Positions 6,467 to 61,600 of a stretch of DNA of 64,000 nucleotides are shown piece by piece; the stretch's first letter is position 1; every line of letters starts with the position of its first letter. Source of the stretch: Akanthomyces muscarius. Lineage: Eukaryota > Ascomycota > Sordariomycetes > Hypocreales > Cordycipitaceae. The notes under the pieces are model-generated. The model did not search any database, was not told the origin of the DNA, and saw nothing but the letters and a program-made list of their open reading frames with translations. The position numbers were made by a program, and so were the translations under genes. The stretch spans positions 2,480,001 to 2,544,000 of the forward strand of contig NC_079246.1 of assembly GCF_028009165.1 (NCBI RefSeq). The letters are read 5' to 3'.

Positions 6467-8285
6467 ATAAAGACCAGGTGGGAAGAGGTTGAGGAGCAGG
6501 AGATGGCGTGTCCCGATACTTGATGCAACTGAGAGCGGAGGGCCGGTTAATTGGCGAGAATTTTGGTCTGCGTTGAGAGTGGTGGGCTGGGAAACGTTCC
6601 AAAGCGTGTCTCGGTGTTTAATGGGCTTCTGGCGACGAGACGCGATGGGGGAGCATATTGGTGTCGCGCAGTCACGTGTAAAGTGACAAATACAGTGCAT
6701 TTTGGCGTCGCGTTTTGGCGGGCGGCGGGCACTGTCCAGCGTGGTATATAGATCTACTTGTGATGAAGTTATCGAAATTAGGCGTTTTCTCGAGAAGAAT
6801 TATATACATAAAACAAAATAAGATCGAAAGGGCATTTAAATACTAGAACTTTGATGCTCAGTGGTAGACACTTGGGCTGTGACTTTACCTGCTGTAAGAC
6901 AGGCTTGCCAGGCTCTCCAGCTAAAAGTTCGCTGCGCACTGTACTTGCTGGAATCGCGGGCTGCAGCGAGTGGGCTTGGGCAGTCAGCAATGGGACATAT
7001 CAAAATAACATTGAAATAATGATAATCATCACCAGCTTTTCGAGAGTCTTTGGATCTGCTTTTGACTTGTCTGCTGACTTGTGAGGCTTCAAGTTATAGA
7101 AGCATCTTAGGCAAGTTGTCGGTGAAGCCATGTATTTGCAATTCAGTCGGCCACATTGCCATCAGCTGAACTCGCTCAATATTTCATTGCTGGAAAAATC
7201 AACGCAGTTGGCTTTGGAAAGAGAAGCAGCCTCGGCCTTGAACCTTGCCTGCCACAGATAGTGTGCGGTCCGCGCGAGGGTCTCGAACGGTACAACGGTT
7301 TGCCCGCCAGCCGCACGATGCAAGCACTTCCTGGGCCACAGAGTTTGCTATTTCAGAGCCAAAGGACTGTCTCTAACAAGCCTGTGATTTTAAAAACGGT
7401 ATATGCATCAAGTCGCAGCAATGCCTTGGTCGTACAGAAATGCAAGTCGCGGAATGACAACTTGTTTCCAACTTGTTCTGCTTCTCACCACCAAGACTTT
7501 CTTCTTTGCCGGTACCATTTGTCCACTTGTCTATCAAAACTGTCTATGTCGAGATGCGCCCTCGGCCAATCATCAAGCCTAGATGCACAAACTGTCGACG
7601 CAAAATAGCAGCGAGATAGCTGGCCATGCCATTGGCCTCGCGTCCATAATTCAGCTGGTCGGCCCCGACGCATTCCAGGATGGCCATCACCACCAAGCGT
7701 TTGTCTTTTCTCGTTTGGTGTTGGTATGTCCACTCGGGTATCCAGTCCTCATTTTCGCTACCTTTGCTAACCCTGACATGTTTCTTCGGACAGCGACGGC
7801 GCTTGTCAAAGAGCAGCCCACCTTCTTGGATGTACCATTGTGAACAGACTTCTGTGTAGTACTGAGCACCACTCGTAAACGGCCAATAAGCGTCACGAAA
7901 CCATTCTCGTTTTTGACAGTAATTCTCGGGGTAAGTTTTTTTGTCGACGAGGTATTACTAGTGCTAAAAGGCGCTGGCACTGGTGAGATGTCTTAAACAA
8001 GGAAAACACATCAGCATAGACCCCTACGCCCTAGTTCTTACCATTATAGGCTTTAGTGACTTGAAATTGGGGACTCCAATATTTGCTCCATTCCGCACTG
8101 CAGTCTACGTATGTCAACCATTCCAATCCACATCGCACATGGCTATCTTTTTCTCAGTCATAGACATATATTAATCGGACAGGTGCCAGAGTTTGCGAGG
8201 TGTGGCTGTGGTTGCAACTCTATTTGCTCTTGACCTAGTTCATTTTCTTACCCTCATTCACCGATCCAGACGCCTTTTCGTTACG
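6467..8285. other. 1.8-kb region without an intact gene
   Basis: Several short open frames are present but none has recognisable domain content. A short frame at 7554-7619 begins like a fungal zinc-cluster protein (CTNCRRK) and stops after 21 codons; see the separate entry. The last 100 bases before 8286 are pyrimidine-rich, as expected for the leader of the micro-exon gene. Confidence 0.45.
7554..7619 (+). pseudogene. possible relic of a Zn2Cys6 zinc-cluster N terminus
   Basis: A 21-codon frame, MRPRPIIKPR followed by CTNCRRKIAAR and a stop, resembles the start of fungal C6 zinc-cluster factors (CxNCRRRKIKC). The third cysteine is replaced and a stop follows directly. About 175 bases further on, a frame beginning near 7792 after an AG reads CDGACQRA, which also echoes zinc-cluster sequence, but I cannot build an intact joined frame. 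This may be coincidence. Confidence 0.2.
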
Positions 8286-9373
8286 ATGAAGCTGACTCTC
8301 GCCGCCTGTGCACTTCTAGCCGCCTCCGTCGCTGCCGCTCCCATGCCGGAGATGAATGCAGCTGAGAACGCTGCTGCAACTAATGAGGTACATATGCTAA
8401 CCGGCCGTTTTCAAGTTGTAGGCACAAAGCTGATAGAGTTCCAGAATGTACGAGATGGTTATTCACGCTACTAGTATACCGCTGACAGGATTGACAACGA
8501 CAGTGTGTGAGTATAGAGCGACTGTTACTTTACGTTTGAGAAGAATGCTGACGAAAAATGGAAACACAGGGTGTGAGTAGTGGGCCTAAGGACCCTCATA
8601 CACATCTATTACAGTCGAGATCTAACATCAGGGGTGGCAGTTTGTAAGTCGCCCTGCTTCCAACATTTACATTGCTATAACTAACTATCTGTCATTTAGG
8701 AAGTGAGCTTTTGTACTCCTTGAAATCTCACATGTGAACAAAGTTCTAACCTGGCTTTCAATATTAGCTAGTAAGTTGTGTCAGAGAATTTGATCGTGGA
8801 GTCTTCGCTAATCGATGTATAGCTGGTATGTGTCAAACGATGTTCTTTGCCCGCGTGATGTGTCCCATACTGACATGAAGTAGGGAGTAAGTTGTTATTC
8901 TCGGCATGCTCCGACTTGAATGATTTAGCGAAGCTGATCCATTTCTTTATAGCTGGTCAGTATTTCTGCAAGTCAATTAACATCTTGATCTTTGTTAATT
9001 TGTACTACAGATTGTGAGTTGTATACTACTGATCTACTAACGCGTGGGCTACGGACTGACGGCTCCATCTACAACAGAAAGTAAGTGGTGACTTTGGCAG
9101 TGACTGTAAAAGTCACGGGTTCTTATCAAGTCGTCTATAATGCTAACCAGGATAGGCGGTGAGTGTTGTTTAAGCTCAGTCATGGTTGAATAACTGACGA
9201 GGAAAATATAGGGGTGCATTGATGAGTCCGCGCTTGGTGCTATCCAGAAAGTCCTCGGTGGATTGCTTGGGAGCTTGGGTAAAGGGAAACCCCCGGCTCC
9301 AGCTACACCTACAGCTCCGGCTCAAGCTACTGCTTCGGCTCAAGCTACTCCTTCCGCTGCGGCAGGCCAATAA
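8286..9373 (+). CDS. secreted small protein encoded by a micro-exon gene (twelve 3-nt exons)
   Basis: A 300-nt coding sequence (99 residues) spread over 1088 bp by 13 introns. Exon 1 is 8286-8387 (34 codons, signal peptide MKLTLAACALLAASVAAA). Then come twelve 3-nt exons: 8445, 8504, 8570, 8641, 8700, 8768, 8823, 8884, 8953, 9011, 9078 and 9156 (first base of each), reading AAT, TGT, GGT, TTT, GAA, CTA, CTG, GGA, CTG, ATT, AAA, GCG = N C G F E L L G L I K A. The last exon, 9212-9373 (53 codons plus TAA), starts GCIDESALGAIQKVLGG and ends in an Ala/Pro/Thr/Gln-rich tail. Introns are 57, 56, 63, 68, 56, 65, 52, 58, 66, 55, 64, 75 and 53 nt, all phase 0. Donors are GTAAGT, GTGAGT or close variants, and branch motifs such as GCTGAC or CTAAC lie shortly before the AG. 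The size class equals that of introns in neighbouring genes. The mature protein would be small, with two cysteines (residues 36 and 48) around a hydrophobic helix-like stretch. Function unknown; secretion suggests an effector or antimicrobial-type role only by analogy. Confidence 0.88.
8388..9211 (+). other. micro-exon tract: 13 introns alternating with 12 single-codon exons
   Basis: The tract has a period of about 55-78 nt: donor GTRAGT-like, branch motif, AG, three exonic bases, donor. Likely branch motifs: GCTGAT 8429, GCTGAC 8481, GCTGAC 8548, TCTAAC 8621, CTAAC 8681, TTCTAAC 8744, GCTAAT 8807, ACTGAC 8869, GCTGAT 8933, ATTAAC 8976 or GTTAAT 8994, ACTGAC 9055, GCTAAC 9142, ACTGAC 9193. 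Every intron-exon boundary falls between codons, so loss of any micro-exon keeps frame. Several nearer AGs exist (8488, 8631, 8880, 9150). Using 8488 or 8880 adds an in-frame stop and using 9150 shifts the frame. Only 8631 gives an open alternative, with a 12-nt exon. Confidence 0.85.
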
Positions 9374-10215
9374 ACTGCGGTGAGTAGATGCATTCGCCTT
9401 GTCTGGGCGGAAGAGTTGCGCTGATGGAAAACATTTGTCGCCGGGACAGGCAGGGCATTGTGCACAGTTATTGGGGTTGTGGATTTTAGCAGCATTACGG
9501 CCCGGCCTGCTGTCCTCGGATACTGGCTCTATTTGGTATCTCGGGCGTAATAGTACACCCGTTTCTTGGCCCTCGCAAGGCTGCAATGTGGTCTTAGAGT
9601 AAGCCTACAATATTCACCTTGGCCTAGCAGCTATTGAATAATAAGCAGCCTTCCGCGTAAAACTTGTTAGCATGTAAGAAGCTCTTTGCTACTTCTTCAC
9701 TAGTGGCTCAACTCAAACTGTGCACTTGTGGTACGCCTAGGTGGTCAACAGGGATGTTGGCGCATGCCACAGCACGAAAGGCTCAGTGCAAGGACCGTTA
9801 CCTTCTACATACTACGTACTCAGTAGGTAGCCTTTAGGCCTGTGTGCGGAGCGAGACCCGAGCGGAGCCCTTTTCGTTAGAGCCTGCCTAGGTATCCGTA
9901 AATAGGTACCAAAGCCGACGGACACGGGCAGACGATCCTCGGCGAATCACGGCGCTGACGCTACCAAAAAAAAAATTGTTGAGTTGTCGCGACACTTTTG
10001 TTCTTCGTCATTCTCACTTTCCGAACGGGCAATTAGCCATTGCTCTACTTTTCCGTGAAGCGAACACATTGGCAATTTCATTCTCCCCTCGTCGTTTGTC
10101 CTGAATTGGAAGTCCCGCCTAGGATGATAGCCTCTAGCCCCAACGATTCCTCCTAAAACCCCCTCGAAGAAGCCCCAGGCAACAACGACACAATACACCA
10201 CCTCCAGCGGCCGCA
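9374..10215. other. spacer between the micro-exon gene and the ABC1-family gene
   Basis: Contains the 3' end of the micro-exon transcript and the promoter and leader of the gene starting at 10216. I see no further gene; short frames on either strand lack features. Confidence 0.5.
9380..9449 (+). other. candidate 3'-UTR intron of the micro-exon gene
   Basis: Six bases after the stop codon there is a GTGAGT donor at 9380. A GCTGAT branch-like motif at 9420 and a GGACAG acceptor ending at 9449 give a 70-nt intron of the same form as the thirteen upstream ones. It does not affect the protein. Confidence 0.45.
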
Positions 10216-12117
10216 ATGAGTAGCTTTTCGCTCTCCGTCTTCACTAGGCGCCTTGGTCCCCGCCAATGGACCTGCACGACCTGCAAGAGCCAGCTCCCCC
10301 GATTTCCCAAGCCGACCTCGCCCTTGGGTGCTCCCAGACGCTTCGCCACCGCAACGGGCAGGAATGGCTCGTCGCAACAGCAGCGCCGCCCGCGCAGAGC
10401 TCTGTTGTTCGCATCTACTAGTGCGGCCGTGGGCGGTGTCACGGCGCTTGCCTTCATCGATGACATTAAAGGCGCCTACGAGGCTGCTGGGCGCAGCGGT
10501 CGCGTCGTCTCTGGGCTCGCCATCTGCATCAACGAGTATGACGCCGCAGCAACAACATGACCTCGACGGCCGGCGATGCTAACAAAGGTGCTAGCTACCG
10601 TACCACACTGAACCAAAGAGCCCTGATCGAAGACGCCGACGAAAAGGAAGCCATCCTCAAGGCATGCCACAAGCGATGCGCCGAACGCACCCTCAAGGTG
10701 CTCGAGAAGAATGGCGGCATCTTTATCAAGCTTGGACAGCATCTTGTACGCGATCCGCATGCACCCATCACCGGCTGCGCACCGACTGACACATCCACAG
10801 AGCGCAATGAACTACCTCTTACCCTCCGAGTGGACCACGACCTTTATCCCTCTCCAGGACAAGTGCCCCGTCTCGTCCTACGAATCGATTGAGGCAATGT
10901 ACAGAAAGGACACGGGCGAGGACCTGATGGTGTACTTTTCCGAATTCTCGCACGAGCCCATCGGCGCCGCCTCGCTCGCTCAGGTGCACCTGGCCACGAT
11001 CCGCGCCACGGGCCAGCAGGTCGCCGTCAAGGTGCAGCACCCGGAGCTGCAGGCCTGGGCGCCGCTGGACCTGGCGCTGACCCGCTACACCTTTTCGACG
11101 CTCAAGCGCTTCTTCCCCGAGTACGACCTCGAGTGGCTGTCGTCGGAGATGGAGGTGTCGCTGCCCAAGGAGCTCGACTTCCAGGAGGAGGCCGTCAACG
11201 CCAAGTCGATGCGCGACCACTTTGCCAAGATCCCCCACCTCCCCCTCATCATCCCCGACGTCGTCTGGGCCCGCCGGCGCATCATCGTCATGGCCTGCGA
11301 GGCCGGCCACCGCCCCGACGACCTGGCCTACCTCGACGCCAACGGCATCGACCGCGACGAGGTGTCGGCGACGCTCGCCCGCATCTTCAACGAGATGATC
11401 TTTGGCGACGGCGCGCCGCTCCACTGCGACCCCCACGGCGGCAACCTCGCCATCCGCAAAAACGACGAGTTTCGCGGCTTCAGCGGCCGGCCCAACTTTG
11501 ACGTCATCCTCTACGACCACGGCCTGTACCGCGAGATCCCGCTCGCGCTGCGCCGCTCCTACGCCAAGATGTGGCTGGCCGTCATCGACGGCGACATGGA
11601 GCGCATGAGGCGGTACGCGCACGAGGTCGCCGGCATCACCGACAAGGACTTTCCGCTCTTCGCATCGGCCATTACCGGCCGCGACTATAGCGTCATCTCC
11701 AAGCAGGGCTCCATCCTGCAGACGCGCACCGGCGACGAGGAGGCCGCCATGTCGACGTCCCTGCAGGAGGGCCTCATCGTCGACCTGGTGCAGCTGCTGA
11801 GCCGCGTGCCGCGCATCATCCTCCTCATCCTCAAGACCAACGACCTGACGCGCAGCCTCGACGAGAACCTGCAGACGCGCCAGGGCCCGATCCGCACCTT
11901 TATGATCCTGGCGCGCTACTGCACGCGCACCGTCTTTTACGAGCAGCTGGACAAGATCCGCGAGCGCGGCGGGTCGTTCCTCTGGCCGGCCAACGCGGTC
12001 CGCGTCGTGTCGGCCTGGGCGTCGCTGATGCGTGTCGAGATCAAGCTCGAGGTGTTTGAGCTGTGGCTGAGCATCAAGCGCATGCTGGGGCTGAGGAGCA
12101 CCGCAGCGCTGCAATAG
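10216..12117 (+). CDS. ABC1/ADCK (UbiB) family atypical kinase-like protein, Mcp2/ADCK1-like
   Basis: Member of the ABC1/UbiB family, mitochondrial atypical kinases or ATPases linked to lipid and coenzyme Q homeostasis. Exons 10216-10535, 10595-10745 and 10801-12117 (introns 59 and 55 nt) encode 595 residues. The N terminus is basic and Ser/Thr-rich (mitochondrial targeting type), followed by an Ala/Gly hydrophobic stretch near residues 70-80. The family-specific KxGQ motif is seen as GGIFIKLGQ (about residue 152), the Ala-rich loop as EPIGAASLAQVHLA (about 208-221), the catalytic-loop equivalent as HCDPHGGN (about 365-372), and the DFG equivalent as YDHGLYREI. The overall arrangement fits the Mcp2/ADCK1 branch better than Coq8, but that assignment is inference. 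Confidence 0.92.
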
Positions 12118-32040: not shown

Positions 32041-32873
32041 ATGGTGGATCAAGGCTTCGATAGCCATTACTGGCTGTGTGTCAAAATGTTGTAATTCAAG
32101 AATGTTGGGCTGGCAGGAATGCGTGGTCATGGGACATGAGGAGTTGAGAGAGCGGCATTTACATATAGCGAGCATTATCCTTTTTGTGGTCTTCATTCGC
32201 CACTAGAAGAATTTTCCATGTATCATGTTTTACTCGTCGGTCTGTGTTGTTAGTATCTTGTACGTGTTTTTTTTACAGTCTAGGGCCGACAAGCGACGCC
32301 GCGCAAACTTCTTTTCGCGTCCAACACGGTTTTGCAAGTTCGGAAGACGTGATTGCCTTCGCGCATGCAGCGTTTGCTCGACATGGTTGGACGACACGCG
32401 TGAACTTAACGTTGAGACTTGCGTTAACGAAAATAAGCATCGTCGGCGTCTAGCTGACGCTACCAAGGCGCCGCTCGACTTCACGGCGTCATACATGCGA
32501 GGTTGTCCATTGCTTGCAGCCCAGCAAAACTCAATTGCCTATGTCTTGCTGTTGGCTTGAGGGGGCTGGTGTTTGAGCAGACCAACTCACCCAATCCCAT
32601 TGCGAGAAGCCAAAGTCTCTTGCGTAACATGATGGGCTACTATTGCGACGGCGTCAACCCGCAAGAGTCTAGACACTCTGCTTGCCGCTGCAAAGTCGGC
32701 AGCGGCAAATGTCGAGAGAAGACATACCGTTTCGCTCTATATAAACCTGGCCAGGCCTCTTGCTCCAAACTCTCGTTCTTGTTCTCCTACCAACCACACT
32801 CGTTGTTACTTCTATTCGAACCCTTCGCTTACTCTTTTCTACCCTTTCTCAACCAACACACTTGCCCATCAAG
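32041..32873. other. spacer between orm1 and the wall-protein gene
   Basis: 3' flank of orm1, then the promoter of the next gene with a TATA box at 32738-32745 and a pyrimidine-rich leader. No gene seen. Confidence 0.5.
32738..32745 (+). promoter_or_regulatory. TATA box of the GPI wall-protein gene
   Basis: TATATAAA lies 129 bases before the start codon at 32874 and is followed by a CT-rich leader, as in highly expressed fungal genes. Confidence 0.55.
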
Positions 32874-33689
32874 ATGCGTTTCTCTGCTGCTACCGTCCTG
32901 GCCGTCGCCAGCATTGGCTATGCCCACGAGGGGCCGTACACGTCCTCCAGCATGACCGGCATGGCCTCGTCCTCCTCGCACCACGCCAGCTCGTCCTCGA
33001 CGCACCCCCCCAGCTCGAGCACCACGCACCACTCCAGCTCGAGCACCACGCACAAGCACAGCAGCGAGCACCATACCAGCAGCGTCTACACGGAGCGTCC
33101 CCACCACTCTAGCAGCGTCCCCCATGTGATGTCCTCGTCCTCTTACACCCCCACCAAGAAGCCGTCCAAGCCTTGCCCCAGCGAGTCGACCAAGACGCAC
33201 CACCCCCACCCCCATCACTCGTCGTCGGATCACCACGGCCACCACGGCCACCACACCACGGCCCCTTGCCCGACCCTGACCACCAAGAAGCACCACCACA
33301 CCGCTACCTACCCCTACCCCACGCCTTCTGGCAACAAGGGCAACGGTAACGGTGGTAACGGTGACAATGGCAACGGTAACAAGGGCAATGGCAACGGTGG
33401 CAACGGCAACAGCGGCAACAACGGCAACGGTGGCAATGGTAACAATGGCAATGGCAACAACGGCAACGGTGGCAACGGCAACAATGGCAATGGCGGTAAC
33501 GGTGACAATGGCAATGGCAACAACGGCAACGGTGACAGTGGCAATGGTGATAACGGCAACGGCAACACCGGCACTGGCACTGGCAACCCCATGCCCACGA
33601 TGCCCATGGTTGTCGCTGGCGGTGCTGCGAAGGTTACCGGCGGTGCTGCCGTCCTTGGTAGCTTCGCTGCTCTCTTCCTCGCTCTGTAA
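32874..33689 (+). CDS. GPI-anchored cell-wall-type protein, Ser/His-rich with Gly-Asn repeats
   Basis: Intronless, 271 residues. A signal peptide (MRFSAATVLAVASIGYA) is followed by a Ser/Thr/His-rich region likely to be heavily O-mannosylated, with His clusters such as HHPHPHHSSSDHHGHHGHH. A region of about 80 residues made almost only of Gly and Asn (NGNGGNGDNGN type) comes next. The protein ends with a hydrophobic tail (VVAGGAAKVTGGAAVLGSFAALFLAL) typical of a GPI-anchor signal. No enzyme domain is visible. It is probably structural or surface-coating; His clusters could bind metal (inference). The start at 32874 is chosen because the signal peptide begins there; the frame is open further upstream. 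Confidence 0.87.
   Translation: MRFSAATVLAVASIGYAHEGPYTSSSMTGMASSSSHHASSSSTHPPSSSTTHHSSSSTTHKHSSEHHTSSVYTERPHHSSSVPHVMSSSSYTPTKKPSKPCPSESTKTHHPHPHHSSSDHHGHHGHHTTAPCPTLTTKKHHHTATYPYPTPSGNKGNGNGGNGDNGNGNKGNGNGGNGNSGNNGNGGNGNNGNGNNGNGGNGNNGNGGNGDNGNGNNGNGDSGNGDNGNGNTGTGTGNPMPTMPMVVAGGAAKVTGGAAVLGSFAALFLAL
33380..33575 (+). repeat. GGY-AAY coding minisatellite
   Basis: Imperfect tandem repetition of GGC/GGT and AAC/AAT codons encoding the Gly-Asn region of the wall protein. Purely coding, length likely variable between strains. Confidence 0.8.
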
Positions 33690-39909: not shown

Positions 39910-42037
39910 ATGTCGACACCGACGCCGGCGGCAATGAAGCATGCGGCCTCGCAGCAGGGCCGCACCCCTTCGGGCCAGCAGGGCCGGACGCCGTCACACT
40001 TTCCAGCCGCCACGCCGCCCGTCTCTACGCCCTTCTCCAACGCTGCGTACGCGGCCTTCTCCCCTCACGGCCAGCGATCGTCGCCGCAGCACGTCAAAAA
40101 ATCACCTGCCACCATGGGTATGATGGGGCAATCGACAATGACCTCGCTCAACTTCGACAGTCCCTCGACAGCGGTGGCCATGGGCGCTCTCGTCATGGGA
40201 AATGGCTTTGACATGGGCCTTGCAGGCGTCGCAGGCCTCGATGGCGTCAATTCTGCCTACGCCAACGAGGACGAGAAGCTGCGGCGACTAGAGTCAATCA
40301 TCAAAATGTTGAACGTATGGATTTGCCTCTGTCTTGCGCGTGGATCCCGTAATGCTAACTAACCTGCAGGAAAAAAAGGGCATGGTCAGCGAGGCAGGCC
40401 TGGAGCGACTCGCGCAACGACTTGGCATGGAAATCCTCGCCGAAGAACACTCTACACCCGGCGGGCGAAAAACGAAAACACTAGCTATCGCTGGATCTGC
40501 TATTGCCCTTGATATTATCCTGGACAACAACATCGTCCAGAATGCGACGCTTTCGTACCATGGAAATGCCGACTCCGTCACAAACCACATCGATGCCGCT
40601 AGTCAGATACTGCTCAAAGACCTACAGCTTCTGCCAGGCCAAAGTCCTCTAACAAAGACGCTGGAGAGATTTGCCATCAATTTTGAGCGTCTCGCTAAGC
40701 TGGACAAGCTTAGCATCATTCCCGGTCTGGATTGCCACGAGGCGCTGTCGAGCATGTATTCTTGCTTGATGCGTTTGCATGAATGGGACGTGGAGCAGCT
40801 GCGCCAAAGTTCCGCCCTGACTGGCAAGCCAGATTCTCTGATAGCAAGTGCTGCCATGTGCACAAGGCATGGAAATCCAGTCATGCATGAGCGCGGCCAG
40901 GTTGGGCTCGCCCTGCAATACTGGAAAGAGGCGAGATTCGTCGCACCACCAGCCGGACAAGGGACCAGTGGCGACAGCAAAATATGGTCCATGCTTCTCG
41001 GTTGCGCCGCCATTGACGGCGTAGGACTACCGCCTGTCAGAGTGTCAGAGAATTGGATCTCCAAAGACATTGTCAAGCAAGACGAGATGACCGACTCGCC
41101 AATTCCTGCCCTCGACTGGCAGGAGCCAGATCACGTCTCGTTACCTGCATCGGAGGAAAATAAGGACGCAAGTATGGATATGCTCCAGGCCGACCTCTCG
41201 ACCACGAGAGTGCCGCGTGTCATGTTCACAGCCACTTTTGACCCGCCCGTCATTCTCCCACAGAGCGAATGGGGGCGCATGTACAATATTGCGGGTGTCG
41301 AGCCGCCCACCGACTTCCATCGCCAGCCTCCTACCTTTGATGTTCTTTTCTTTCCGGTAGCCCCGGGCTCGCGGCAGGACCCTAGCGAGGCCCGTACTAT
41401 TGTTCGTAGACGGGAGCTGCCCATGATCAACACGTATAATGACTCTTTGTCAAGGACGCACCAAAGCAGCTTATTCATTTACAAGCCGATATACTCGCAA
41501 AAGATATCGGAGCTGCCATTCGCACATCCGCGCCAGCTTATTGAGATGCTGCCTGTGCTTCGCCAGTATGCATTCTTGTCGACATTGCTTGAGAGAAGCT
41601 TCGGTCGAGAGGACAAGTCTGCTGCTGAGAGCAATGTCGCACCAACTACGCAAGAGAACGGAATCGAAAAGTCAGATACCTCGACCATGAGGGATCAGCT
41701 CGCCGACTTTATGAACTCGGACGAGACAAGCTCAAAGACAGACGGCGGCCTTCCAATCAACATCCCGGCAGACGTCTCGCTCGATGTCATTCTCTGGGTT
41801 CATCCTTCCCCGCACATGCAGGTGGTATTCCCGATGCGGGATACAACCGCCAACATCACACTGAGCATTTTGGAAAACGGACTGGTGCAAATCATTCACG
41901 AGAATGTTCTCGGCGAAGAACCCGGCCCGGTCAAAGAGATTAACGGAAGCAATGTCACAAGGGAGCAGCTGGCCAAGGTATTGGAGCACCTCGAGGATTT
42001 GAGCAAATGGGCCGAGTGGATTCGATCTCGGCTGTAA
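39910..42037 (+). CDS. med1: Mediator of RNA polymerase II transcription subunit 1
   Basis: Subunit of the middle module of Mediator, which links DNA-bound activators to RNA polymerase II. Exons 39910-40314 and 40370-42037 (intron 55 nt) encode 690 residues. After a disordered Ser/Pro/Gln-rich N terminus, the conserved Med1 domain starts near residue 125 (EKLRRLESIIKMLNEKKGMVSEAGLERLAQRLGMEI, a region), with IALDIILDNNIVQNATLSYHG and a TLERFAINFERLAKLDKL helix. It ends near the C terminus with VILWVHPSPHMQVVFPMR-type strands. Length and domain order fit fungal Med1. Confidence 0.92.
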
Positions 42038-58656: not shown

Positions 58657-61600
58657 GATGTGCTAGTGGGCCTCGCCAGCCAATACTGCAAAGTGAATAC
58701 AAAATAGCGTCGTAGATGGTGTTATTGCTTTGCGAATTTCGGCATCGAATAGCTTCGAGAAGCAAGTGAATTCCGTTTCTGTCGTGTCGTGAGGCCGGCG
58801 CAGCGGTTGGCGCTTCCTTTTGGCGTACCGTTTGTAGAGCGATGTTGTGCTGAGTCGTTGCCCTTTCTGCCGACGAGAACAATAGCGGATATTCGTTTAC
58901 GGACGCCCAACTCTTTCACGCTCTTTTGCTTTGCTACCAGACAAATGAAGATGAGGACGTTGAAAGACGGTGAATATGACAAAGCTGTCGTTTTGGTCAA
59001 TCAGGGCATTCGAGGGGCTTTGCTCGACGACGGCGATACGTTGTGGCGGTGGATATTCGAGTAGGCGATGCTAGAGACTTTAATCAAGGCCGATGAGTTG
59101 AAACGAGGCGCGCATCAAACGGAAAAACACAAAAATCGGCAAGTCCAGCTGTGGAGGGTAAGTATGACGAAGAGAGAAGCAAAAGTGGAAAAGAAGGGTA
59201 TTTGGAAACAAGGCGAGTCGGAGAGGGAAGTTTTGATGATGCGAATAGTGTCTCGAATGCGGAGTGGCTGCTGGCTGGCACCTGCTGGCTGGGTGCTGGG
59301 GTAAGCTCAGGCCAGGCCAGGCCAGGCCAGGCCAGGCGAGTCCCCTGACCCTGAGTCCAGTGGGTTGCTCCAGCGCTCCGCTGGGCCCCAGTCGACTGCT
59401 CCAGCGGGCTTAGCGCCTGGGCGGCCCCCTGCTCGATAGTTGCACCAGCATATGTTGACCAGTCTTTTGCGCCTGGGCCGTCCGGTGATGGGCGTGCACG
59501 GATACGAGAATATTGGTCTGCAGTTCTTGTGCTCAGGTCTACTTCCAAGGTCCTAGTGCAAGGTTCAGGCGCGCTCCGGGGCCGGCGGTGACGGTGACAG
59601 CCTGGGCAGAAGGCCACGGACTACCTCTGATTATCAGCCGCACCATAGACACCAGTATGAGCACATCTACCCAATATACAGCCTCTAGCGCTTTCCAGCA
59701 GACTCAAAATATGAATGCAATGGGTTACAACCTCCCGAGTTGCACACTAGCAGTCTCCTGCTGTCTGGTTGCTACACCGGTAGCCGCCCCGTTGCTATGG
59801 ACCGTCAACCAGCGTCAACGGTCGTAGCATGTGTCCCTTGTGTAATAGACTGGGCAATACCAGCAGAGACACGGACCGACTGGTATTATTGGTCCCTTTA
59901 TTCGACCTCCCTTGCGCAGCGAGGCAAGACACGGCCACGAGGGCAACGACATCCATACGGCTGCAAAACCACGAATTGTCACTCGACCACTCAAGTTCAG
60001 TCCTCGTCTTCAAGCCGGAATAAAAGAGATTACACTAGCCAGAGAGATTACCTTACAAGGCCGCCGTGTCCACTTGCTGGTGGCGTTAGCGCCGCTGGGC
60101 CCTGAGTCTGGCCGGTACCTGAAATTGCACGGACATGGCACGCATAGCGCCATGTATCATTGTTTAGCGCATTTCTATTTTCTGTCTGCCGTCCTCCTCG
60201 GCTGCCCTTGTTTGGATGGAGTGGGCTTTCAAGTTCCTCGAGTGTCGTGTGTCCCGTGTCCCAACGCCTCTTCCGCTCCCTTCCGATTGAATAACTACTG
60301 GTAGCACACTATCCCAAGGGATAGCTCCGTTGGTGGCTGTCAAGTTTGGCCACACGAGGGCACCGTTTCATGCGTTTGAAGTCAAGGAGGAGGAAAAATC
60401 ATTTATTACGGGCCGGCTCTTCTCTTCAGCGAGACCAAGCAACCGGCTCACAGCTGGCTGTCGAGCTCTTAGACAGGCAATGAATCATGCGACCGACTCT
60501 GTTCCTTCACCATGACAACCACGACTTTTTTGTCGTCTTCGATGAATCAAACCATGAATTGCCGCTCTGAATAGTTGCATGCGCCAATCTAGCCATGCTT
60601 CGCCTGGTTTCTTCTCTCATCACGAATGCAAACTCGACAATGGTCGTCGATAGCGGGACACTCACTGACTGGAATGCAATACTGGTAAATCCTCCGATGG
60701 TTCTTTGCCGGAACAATGAGAGCCAGCGAAAAGGTGTGGATCGGCCCTTCTATTGGCGAGCTAGTGCTCCCTCCCCTGACGGTTCATTATTCCATCGGCT
60801 CTGGCATGGACTCGATTCGGATAGCCTGAGTGGCCAGGGCGCCGCGGCCCCGAAATAAGCAGCACAAACTGTTTATTTTAAACTAGTGCTTGGTCCGTGT
60901 GATGTCATTGTGGTTGCATTCTGCGCTGCTCTGGCTCGACCAAACACCATCAGAGAGCAAAAGGGAAAGAAACATATGGGCAGAGTCATAATCACCGACC
61001 TGGCGCTCAATACTCCATAATAGCAGTTGATACAGAGAGCCGCATAACAAAGGGAGCCAATCGCATAGCGACCGGCTCTACCGAACGCCGCGTTTCAGTT
61101 GACAATGGAGCCATACAGCCACCTGGCTTACACGCTCATGGCCAGTCATGGCCGCTGAATGCCCTCGGTAAAGACAGCAACAATCCCATCTCTGGCATCC
61201 GCAACTCACCCTGTCGCCTGCTGCCTGTTCGTTCCTTTTCGACCCATCGAAATCTGTAGGAATCATCCTTTTGTCTGCCAATTTGCCTGCGGCGATGGAT
61301 CCTTCATTAGACCGCAACCCCACTGCCTTGGCTTTTTGGCCCCTGGATACCTTGCAGCGAGCTCGCCACCGACCCCGATCCCAGCCTAATTCGAGGTCCC
61401 TGTATCCGTAGCCTGTCCTTTCGGCCAGGATTGCATTCGCTCCACTGCCTGGACTTGCTGCTCTACCGTCGTCTCATGTCTATTATCCCAATATTTCAAC
61501 ATCCAGGGTGATAAACCGTTTGAAGAAGAACGAGTGGGCTCTCTTGAACGGAATGGAAGCCAAGTACATCATGTCGAAATTTTTCAGGAGCACACTCGTC

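Follow-up and report, generated by a model that had tools for sequence, protein, structure and literature searches.

Can a fungal gene carry twelve internal exons in a row, each of them exactly one codon long? The question is raised by positions 8286-9373 (forward strand) of the window, by which we mean the whole analysed stretch of 64,000 nucleotides. A direct reading of this locus, repeated by script, gives an exon of 102 nt, then twelve triplets framed as AG-NNN-GT and finally an exon of 162 nt. We consider it probable, judging from the DNA sequence, that the locus is a real, unannotated nuclear gene of 14 exons, whose product, 99 residues long, would be a small and probably secreted protein and whose twelve consecutive internal exons would each supply one codon.

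Structure of the locus

All features described here lie on the forward strand. Exon 1 (8286-8387) contains 34 codons and its N-terminus, read by eye, resembles a signal peptide. It is followed by the micro-exons AAT (Asn, 8445-8447), TGT (Cys, 8504-8506), GGT (Gly, 8570-8572), TTT (Phe, 8641-8643), GAA (Glu, 8700-8702), CTA (Leu, 8768-8770), CTG (Leu, 8823-8825), GGA (Gly, 8884-8886), CTG (Leu, 8953-8955), ATT (Ile, 9011-9013), AAA (Lys, 9078-9080) and GCG (Ala, 9156-9158), which together spell N C G F E L L G L I K A in one-letter code. The last exon (9212-9373) comprises 53 codons and its own stop; to the eye it has a tail rich in Pro, Ala, Thr and Ser, and at 9309-9358 it includes 2.8 copies of an imperfect 18-nt repeat. 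Joined together, the exons make 300 nt, that is 99 codons plus the stop, open throughout. Exon 1 ends on a codon boundary and, given its frame, all introns are in phase 0.

The introns are of similar size, each 52-75 nt long: intron 1 occupies 8388-8444 (57 nt), intron 2 8448-8503 (56 nt), intron 3 8507-8569 (63 nt), intron 4 8573-8640 (68 nt), intron 5 8644-8699 (56 nt), intron 6 8703-8767 (65 nt), intron 7 8771-8822 (52 nt), intron 8 8826-8883 (58 nt), intron 9 8887-8952 (66 nt), intron 10 8956-9010 (55 nt), intron 11 9014-9077 (64 nt), intron 12 9081-9155 (75 nt) and intron 13 9159-9211 (53 nt). The ladder thus advances in uniform units of 55-78 nt, with an exon length of 3 nt at all twelve steps. 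A preliminary description of this DNA had already proposed the twelve triplets, the thirteen phase-0 introns, the stop-free 300-nt product and the 53-codon last exon with its stop; the script found the triplets where they had been placed, and recomputation returned the same introns and product.

Several other features of the window may be mentioned here. A candidate intron upstream of the start codon, in the putative 5' UTR, has a GTATGT donor at 8109 and an acceptor at 8182 or 8189 (8109-8189). Another candidate, of 70 nt, would lie in the 3' UTR (9380-9449, forward strand); it starts 7 nt past the stop and has a GTGAGT donor, a branch-type motif and a CAG. In many eukaryotes an intron in the 3' UTR normally marks the message for decay. 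The preliminary description likened the intron sizes to those of ordinary introns in neighbouring genes; one such candidate, of 55 nt, was read by eye beside the ABC1 gene, at 10746-10800. Positions 33329-33567 hold a long imperfect tandem array with periods of 6 to 63 nt and units of the GGC AAC/AAT type, within or beside an ORF (32745-33689) in which no Pfam family was found, and CAGGC stands in six perfect copies at 59308-59337.

Splice signals

The preliminary description credited each repeat of the pattern with a consensus-type donor and a CTRAY branch-like motif. As to the donors, those of introns 1 (GTACAT) and 2 (GTACGA) are weaker. The branch motif was confirmed in 12 of 13 introns, where CTRAY lies 9-18 nt upstream of the acceptor; intron 10 has motifs of the TTRAY type only, the nearest being GTTAAT, 12 nt from its acceptor. 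In two introns an earlier AG has to be skipped, at 8631 near the branch motif of intron 4 and next to the branch motif of intron 12. The signals are strongly concentrated at the locus. In the 824-nt stretch 8388-9211 there are eight GTRAGT sequences, all of them ladder donors, where the rest of the window would predict 0.22; for CTRAY the count is 15 and the expectation 1.79. All thirteen donors and all thirteen acceptors of the ladder were recognised by the splice-site patterns applied; outside the ladder, the same region has 8 donor-like and 6 acceptor-like sites. The exonic side of the donors is not tuned to U1, position -1 being G in 4 of 13 cases.

Does such a ladder call for unusual splicing machinery? 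Two U1-like loci were found in the genome (L023, 1501-1658, and L024, 1501-1632), both scoring under the Rfam cut-off; the control genomes gave no match. Their sequences differ and both start with the standard ATACTTACCT, so no special donor recognition is needed. The eMIC domain (Pfam SRRM_C) belongs to the factor behind the neural microexon programme of animals; a search for it had zero matches in this genome, and the control genomes were equally silent.

Is the ladder a product of chance?

A chain finder was written which requires a donor GT[ACG]NG or GTAC[AG]T exactly 3 nt after YAG, a YTRAY motif upstream and introns of 45-90 nt, criteria that were fixed after the ladder was already known. 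It was run on both strands of 254 kb of the genome, made up of the window and 19 genome samples of 10 kb. One chain of 12 links was found, at the locus, and everything else consisted of single matches: 7 in the window (5 on the forward and 2 on the reverse strand) and 13 on both strands of the 19 samples. When the locus was dinucleotide-shuffled 2,000 times, 1,804 shuffles had no match, 195 had a single match and 1 had a chain of two links. A rough expectation, calculated from the density of single matches under the assumption of independence, is about 2e-27 twelve-link chains per genome.

A looser finder, which accepts exons of 0-24 nt, found no chain of more than two links on both strands of the remaining 254 kb, and 12 of exactly two; with each sequence shuffled once, there were 18 chains of two and a single chain of three. 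At the locus itself this setting replaced the pure 3-nt path by a path of 13 links in which one step measures 10 nt and another 14 nt; this is a tie in the algorithm. The finder singles out the pure 3-nt path only when triplets, or multiples of three, are required. As far as these controls reach, the regularity of the ladder is not due to chance.

It may be objected that the case for a gene is made from sequence, and that the pattern could be accidental or an artefact of assembly, with no gene behind it. The chain finder, the shuffles and the expectation all contradict chance, the locus is non-repetitive, and the database entry P0001 (described below), listed with three member sequences and two contigs, repeats exon 1 together with introns 1 and 2. 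We find an explanation by accident or artefact hardly credible.

Coding content and predicted protein

What can be learned from the twelve codons? Their G+C content is 0.39, compared with 0.42 for the whole stretch 8388-9211 and with 0.60 and 0.58 for the flanking exons, and their GC3 is 0.25, values that rest on only thirty-six nucleotides. GC3 is also low in the last exon (0.39). The residues themselves form no evident pattern. Compared with random triplets they had no excess of amphipathicity (helical-moment P 0.45, 0.74 and 0.82) and no significant difference in mean hydrophobicity (P 0.15). The intron-like composition and these negative tests speak against selection on the peptide. A run of twelve triplets free of stops is expected 41% of the time, and for this reason an uninterrupted frame through the twelve codons is weak evidence when taken alone; the strength of the case comes from the spacing and the splice signals. 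Instead of forming a conserved motif, the triplets may be a cargo that the splicing architecture tolerates. No Pfam family matched the predicted protein. The only match of the last exon in a PDB sequence search had an E of 1.5 and was dismissed as meaningless.

The effects of skipping and of retention were computed. Since the micro-exons are triplets in phase 0, the loss of any of them would remove one residue and leave the frame intact. There are 4,096 combinations of skipped micro-exons, all of which keep the frame, and the 2,496 distinct stretches that they yield contain no stop; even with all twelve skipped, exon 1 joins the last exon in frame (36 nt, a multiple of 3). Retention of a single intron, in contrast, moves the stop from codon 100 to an earlier one, within codons 44-66, in 12 of 13 cases; intron 1 is the sole one whose retention leaves the frame open. 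Errors of skipping would therefore cost one residue and errors of retention the protein.

These properties bear on two other readings of the locus. According to one, positions 8388-9211 are a single long intron of 824 nt which is removed in the main product, while the twelve sites within it serve as stepping stones or are relics. The in-frame junction of exon 1 with the last exon agrees with this, as do the intron-like composition of the triplets and the patternless residues. However, a relic would not preserve thirteen full sets of good splice signals (donor, branch motif and acceptor) at an exact spacing of 3 nt, nor would it keep introns of uniform, ordinary length. The splicing ratchet of animals uses AG/GT junctions of zero length, and ratchet-type sites of this kind occurred in the 254 kb as singles only. 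We regard the long intron as unlikely.

According to the other reading, the ladder is mainly regulatory: thirteen obligate splicing events would act as a sensor of splicing capacity, and the twelve codons would be merely tolerated. Retention of any of 12 of the 13 introns would give an early stop and so probably decay of the message, the exonic bases on the donor side are not adapted to U1, and the codon composition resembles that of introns. On the other hand, an early stop upon retention is common for any intron. We hold a mainly regulatory ladder to be possible, though doubtful; it is compatible with the spliced one-codon gene that we favour and not opposed to it.

Searches for relatives

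The joined protein was compared with 5.77 billion proteins, and one match, P0001, remained out of 48 candidates. P0001 corresponds to exon 1 read through intron 1 and part of intron 2 (8193-8474 of the window). It is listed with three member sequences and with two contigs of up to 4,321 bases, from which it follows that near-identical DNA is present in other data sets. A query restricted to the 59-residue core gave 1 candidate and zero matches in the protein database, and no spliced or annotated homologue was found among the 5.77 billion proteins. The preliminary description had expected standard gene finders to miss the gene. The lack of an annotated homologue in this collection agrees with that expectation, but it also fits a gene without relatives. 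Long reads, too, can misplace very short exons, as one study of a fungus remarks for Iso-Seq (PMC11590231).

In the organism's own genome (36.2 Mb, 12 contigs) a protein search returned the locus alone, with no paralogue or second copy. Scans of GTDB and IMG/VR contigs gave 350 and 84 pattern matches, respectively, among which no relative was confirmed; this absence is expected, since these are collections of prokaryotes and viruses. Rfam found nothing at the gathering score in the window. That the gene is fungal, as had been claimed, is borne out by another protein of the window, Med1 (40313-42037), whose closest named matches are fungi of the Cordyceps type: Cordyceps javanica and Aphanocladium album (81% each), Cordyceps fumosorosea, C. 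militaris and Beauveria bassiana (80%) and Lecanicillium saksenae (79%). Higher values, 98% and 85%, come from environmental proteins without a name. On these grounds we assign the organism to Cordycipitaceae or its vicinity.

Origin of the ladder

How could such an array have arisen? Uniform units of 55-78 nt with exons of identical length, together with short similar stretches at the splice sites (families D5 and D7), are what one might expect of a recent tandem duplication of a unit of intron plus triplet, or of an introner-type array. Introner elements are introns that resemble one another and have copies elsewhere in the genome. Here the interiors of the introns, with the splice signals removed, show no more likeness to one another than shuffled sequences do (mean similarity 9.45, against 9.69 for the shuffled), and the highest similarity between interiors was matched by 59 of 60 shuffled sets. 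Tandem Repeats Finder detected no array within 8388-9211, and a DNA search of the genome with the whole locus returned the locus itself and nothing further among the best candidates scored. Unalike interiors and the lack of genomic copies imply that the introns are neither recent duplicates of one unit nor a visible introner family, and we think a recent origin of this kind very improbable. There may have been an ancient duplication whose traces have since been erased. The interiors have no likeness, yet thirteen sets of signals and the reading frame are intact, and selection on splicing is the natural reading of this combination. The sequence suggests that the introns are old and have been retained by selection.

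Comparison with known systems

To what extent does the predicted gene resemble micro-exon genes described before? The comparisons below refer to those portions of the cited papers that were available. There is a structural likeness to the micro-exon genes (MEGs) of flatworms. By their structural definition, these have at least 7 exons, of which at least half are micro-exons (under 70 nt and a multiple of 3) with a run of at least 4 (PMC7653826); our model has 14 exons, 12 of them micro-exons, all in one run. The MEGs of schistosomes consist of a long 5' exon with a signal peptide, symmetrical micro-exons in the centre and a long 3' exon (PMC4671649), and in the predicted gene the flanking exons have 102 and 162 nt of coding sequence, the signal peptide being judged by eye. 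A small secreted product and frame-neutral skipping would also belong to the plan that the predicted gene has in common with the MEGs of Schistosoma, Echinococcus and Hymenolepis (PMC4671649, PMC7653826). The differences are that the present locus is from a fungus, that every micro-exon is 3 nt long and in phase 0, whereas published descriptions put MEG exons below 36 nt or below 70 nt, and that the introns are tiny. The likeness is one of structure, on paper, and no kinship is claimed.

The bicycle genes of aphids, which encode secreted putative effectors, have many micro-exons, about 17 exons on average, and internal exons that are nearly all in phase 2 (PMC9168663). Many micro-exons and a probable secretion are shared with the fungal model. 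The phase is not, all introns of the ladder being in phase 0, and the CYC motif of bicycle proteins is absent from the predicted 99-residue protein.

Among fungi, the basidiomycete Phlebia radiata has been reported to have gene models in which one-codon exons are numerous and some exons measure two nucleotides (PMC6540522). In the available part of that paper, one-codon exons appear as a general feature and an exon made of the start codon is named, but no consecutive run is described (PMC6540522). A microexon is also reported for Xlr2 of Trichoderma virens, which is hypocrealean, in a paper according to which no functional microexon of a filamentous fungus had been described until then (PMC11121469); as far as the available text goes, this concerns one regulated microexon in a transcription factor, compared with twelve here (PMC11121469). 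Our literature search yielded no fungal run of single-codon exons among the matches listed. The preliminary description knew of no described fungal gene with twelve one-codon exons in a row, and none is among these matches; one-codon exons as such have been reported in Phlebia radiata. What would be new is the use of the smallest in-frame exon size within the micro-exon kind of gene.

Short runs of microexons exist in other eukaryotes. Human RPS24 has three consecutive microexons, one of 3 bp, which are included combinatorially, and in plants adjacent microexons of 5 and 12 nt are found (PMC11162997, PMC8831610, PMC11096116). According to the available portions of these sources, these runs consist of two or three, as opposed to twelve here (PMC11162997, PMC8831610, PMC11096116). 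The stwintrons of ascomycete genes also undergo consecutive splicing events, as we propose for the ladder. In the descriptions available, the internal intron of a stwintron splits a splice signal of the outer intron, whereas the introns of the ladder are complete and separated by a whole codon: none of the 13 lacks a donor, a branch-type motif or an acceptor of its own, and they lie 3 nt apart. Nor does the ladder correspond to recursive splicing at zero-length sites, as its spacing is 3 nt throughout. As for introner elements, the interiors are unalike and, among the best candidates, the locus finds only itself in the genome.

Proposed mechanism and significance

A spliced gene best explains these observations, and how it would work, from splicing to the order of intron removal and the secretion of its product, can be proposed from the sequence. 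The introns are of the form usual in fungi, and each of them, 52-75 nt long and with its own donor, branch motif and acceptor, would be removed by ordinary intron definition. An exon of 3 nt offers no room for factors on its acceptor and its donor simultaneously. Joint occupation of an acceptor and of the donor that follows it at 3 nt is unlikely, and neighbouring introns would consequently be removed one by one, each event appending one codon to the growing exon.

Could the ladder serve to diversify the protein? We put forward, tentatively, that it generates peptides combinatorially: the twelve frame-neutral exons would be skipped variably, and a gene of 1.1 kb would give rise to up to 4,096 combinations. 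This would be the first micro-exon gene of a fungus. As part of the same tentative proposal, the architecture would have been reached independently of the MEGs of flatworms and the bicycle genes of aphids, and it would take the smallest possible in-frame exon and use it twelve times in succession.

If true, such a gene would be an extreme natural test of how the spliceosome copes with exons on which no exon-bound factor can fit, and it would test whether adjacent introns need to be removed in order. It would also bring to light a kind of gene that gene finders overlook, and the origin of the array would become testable through close relatives. Finally, the micro-exon architecture of secreted proteins, known from parasitic flatworms and sap-feeding insects, would extend to fungi.
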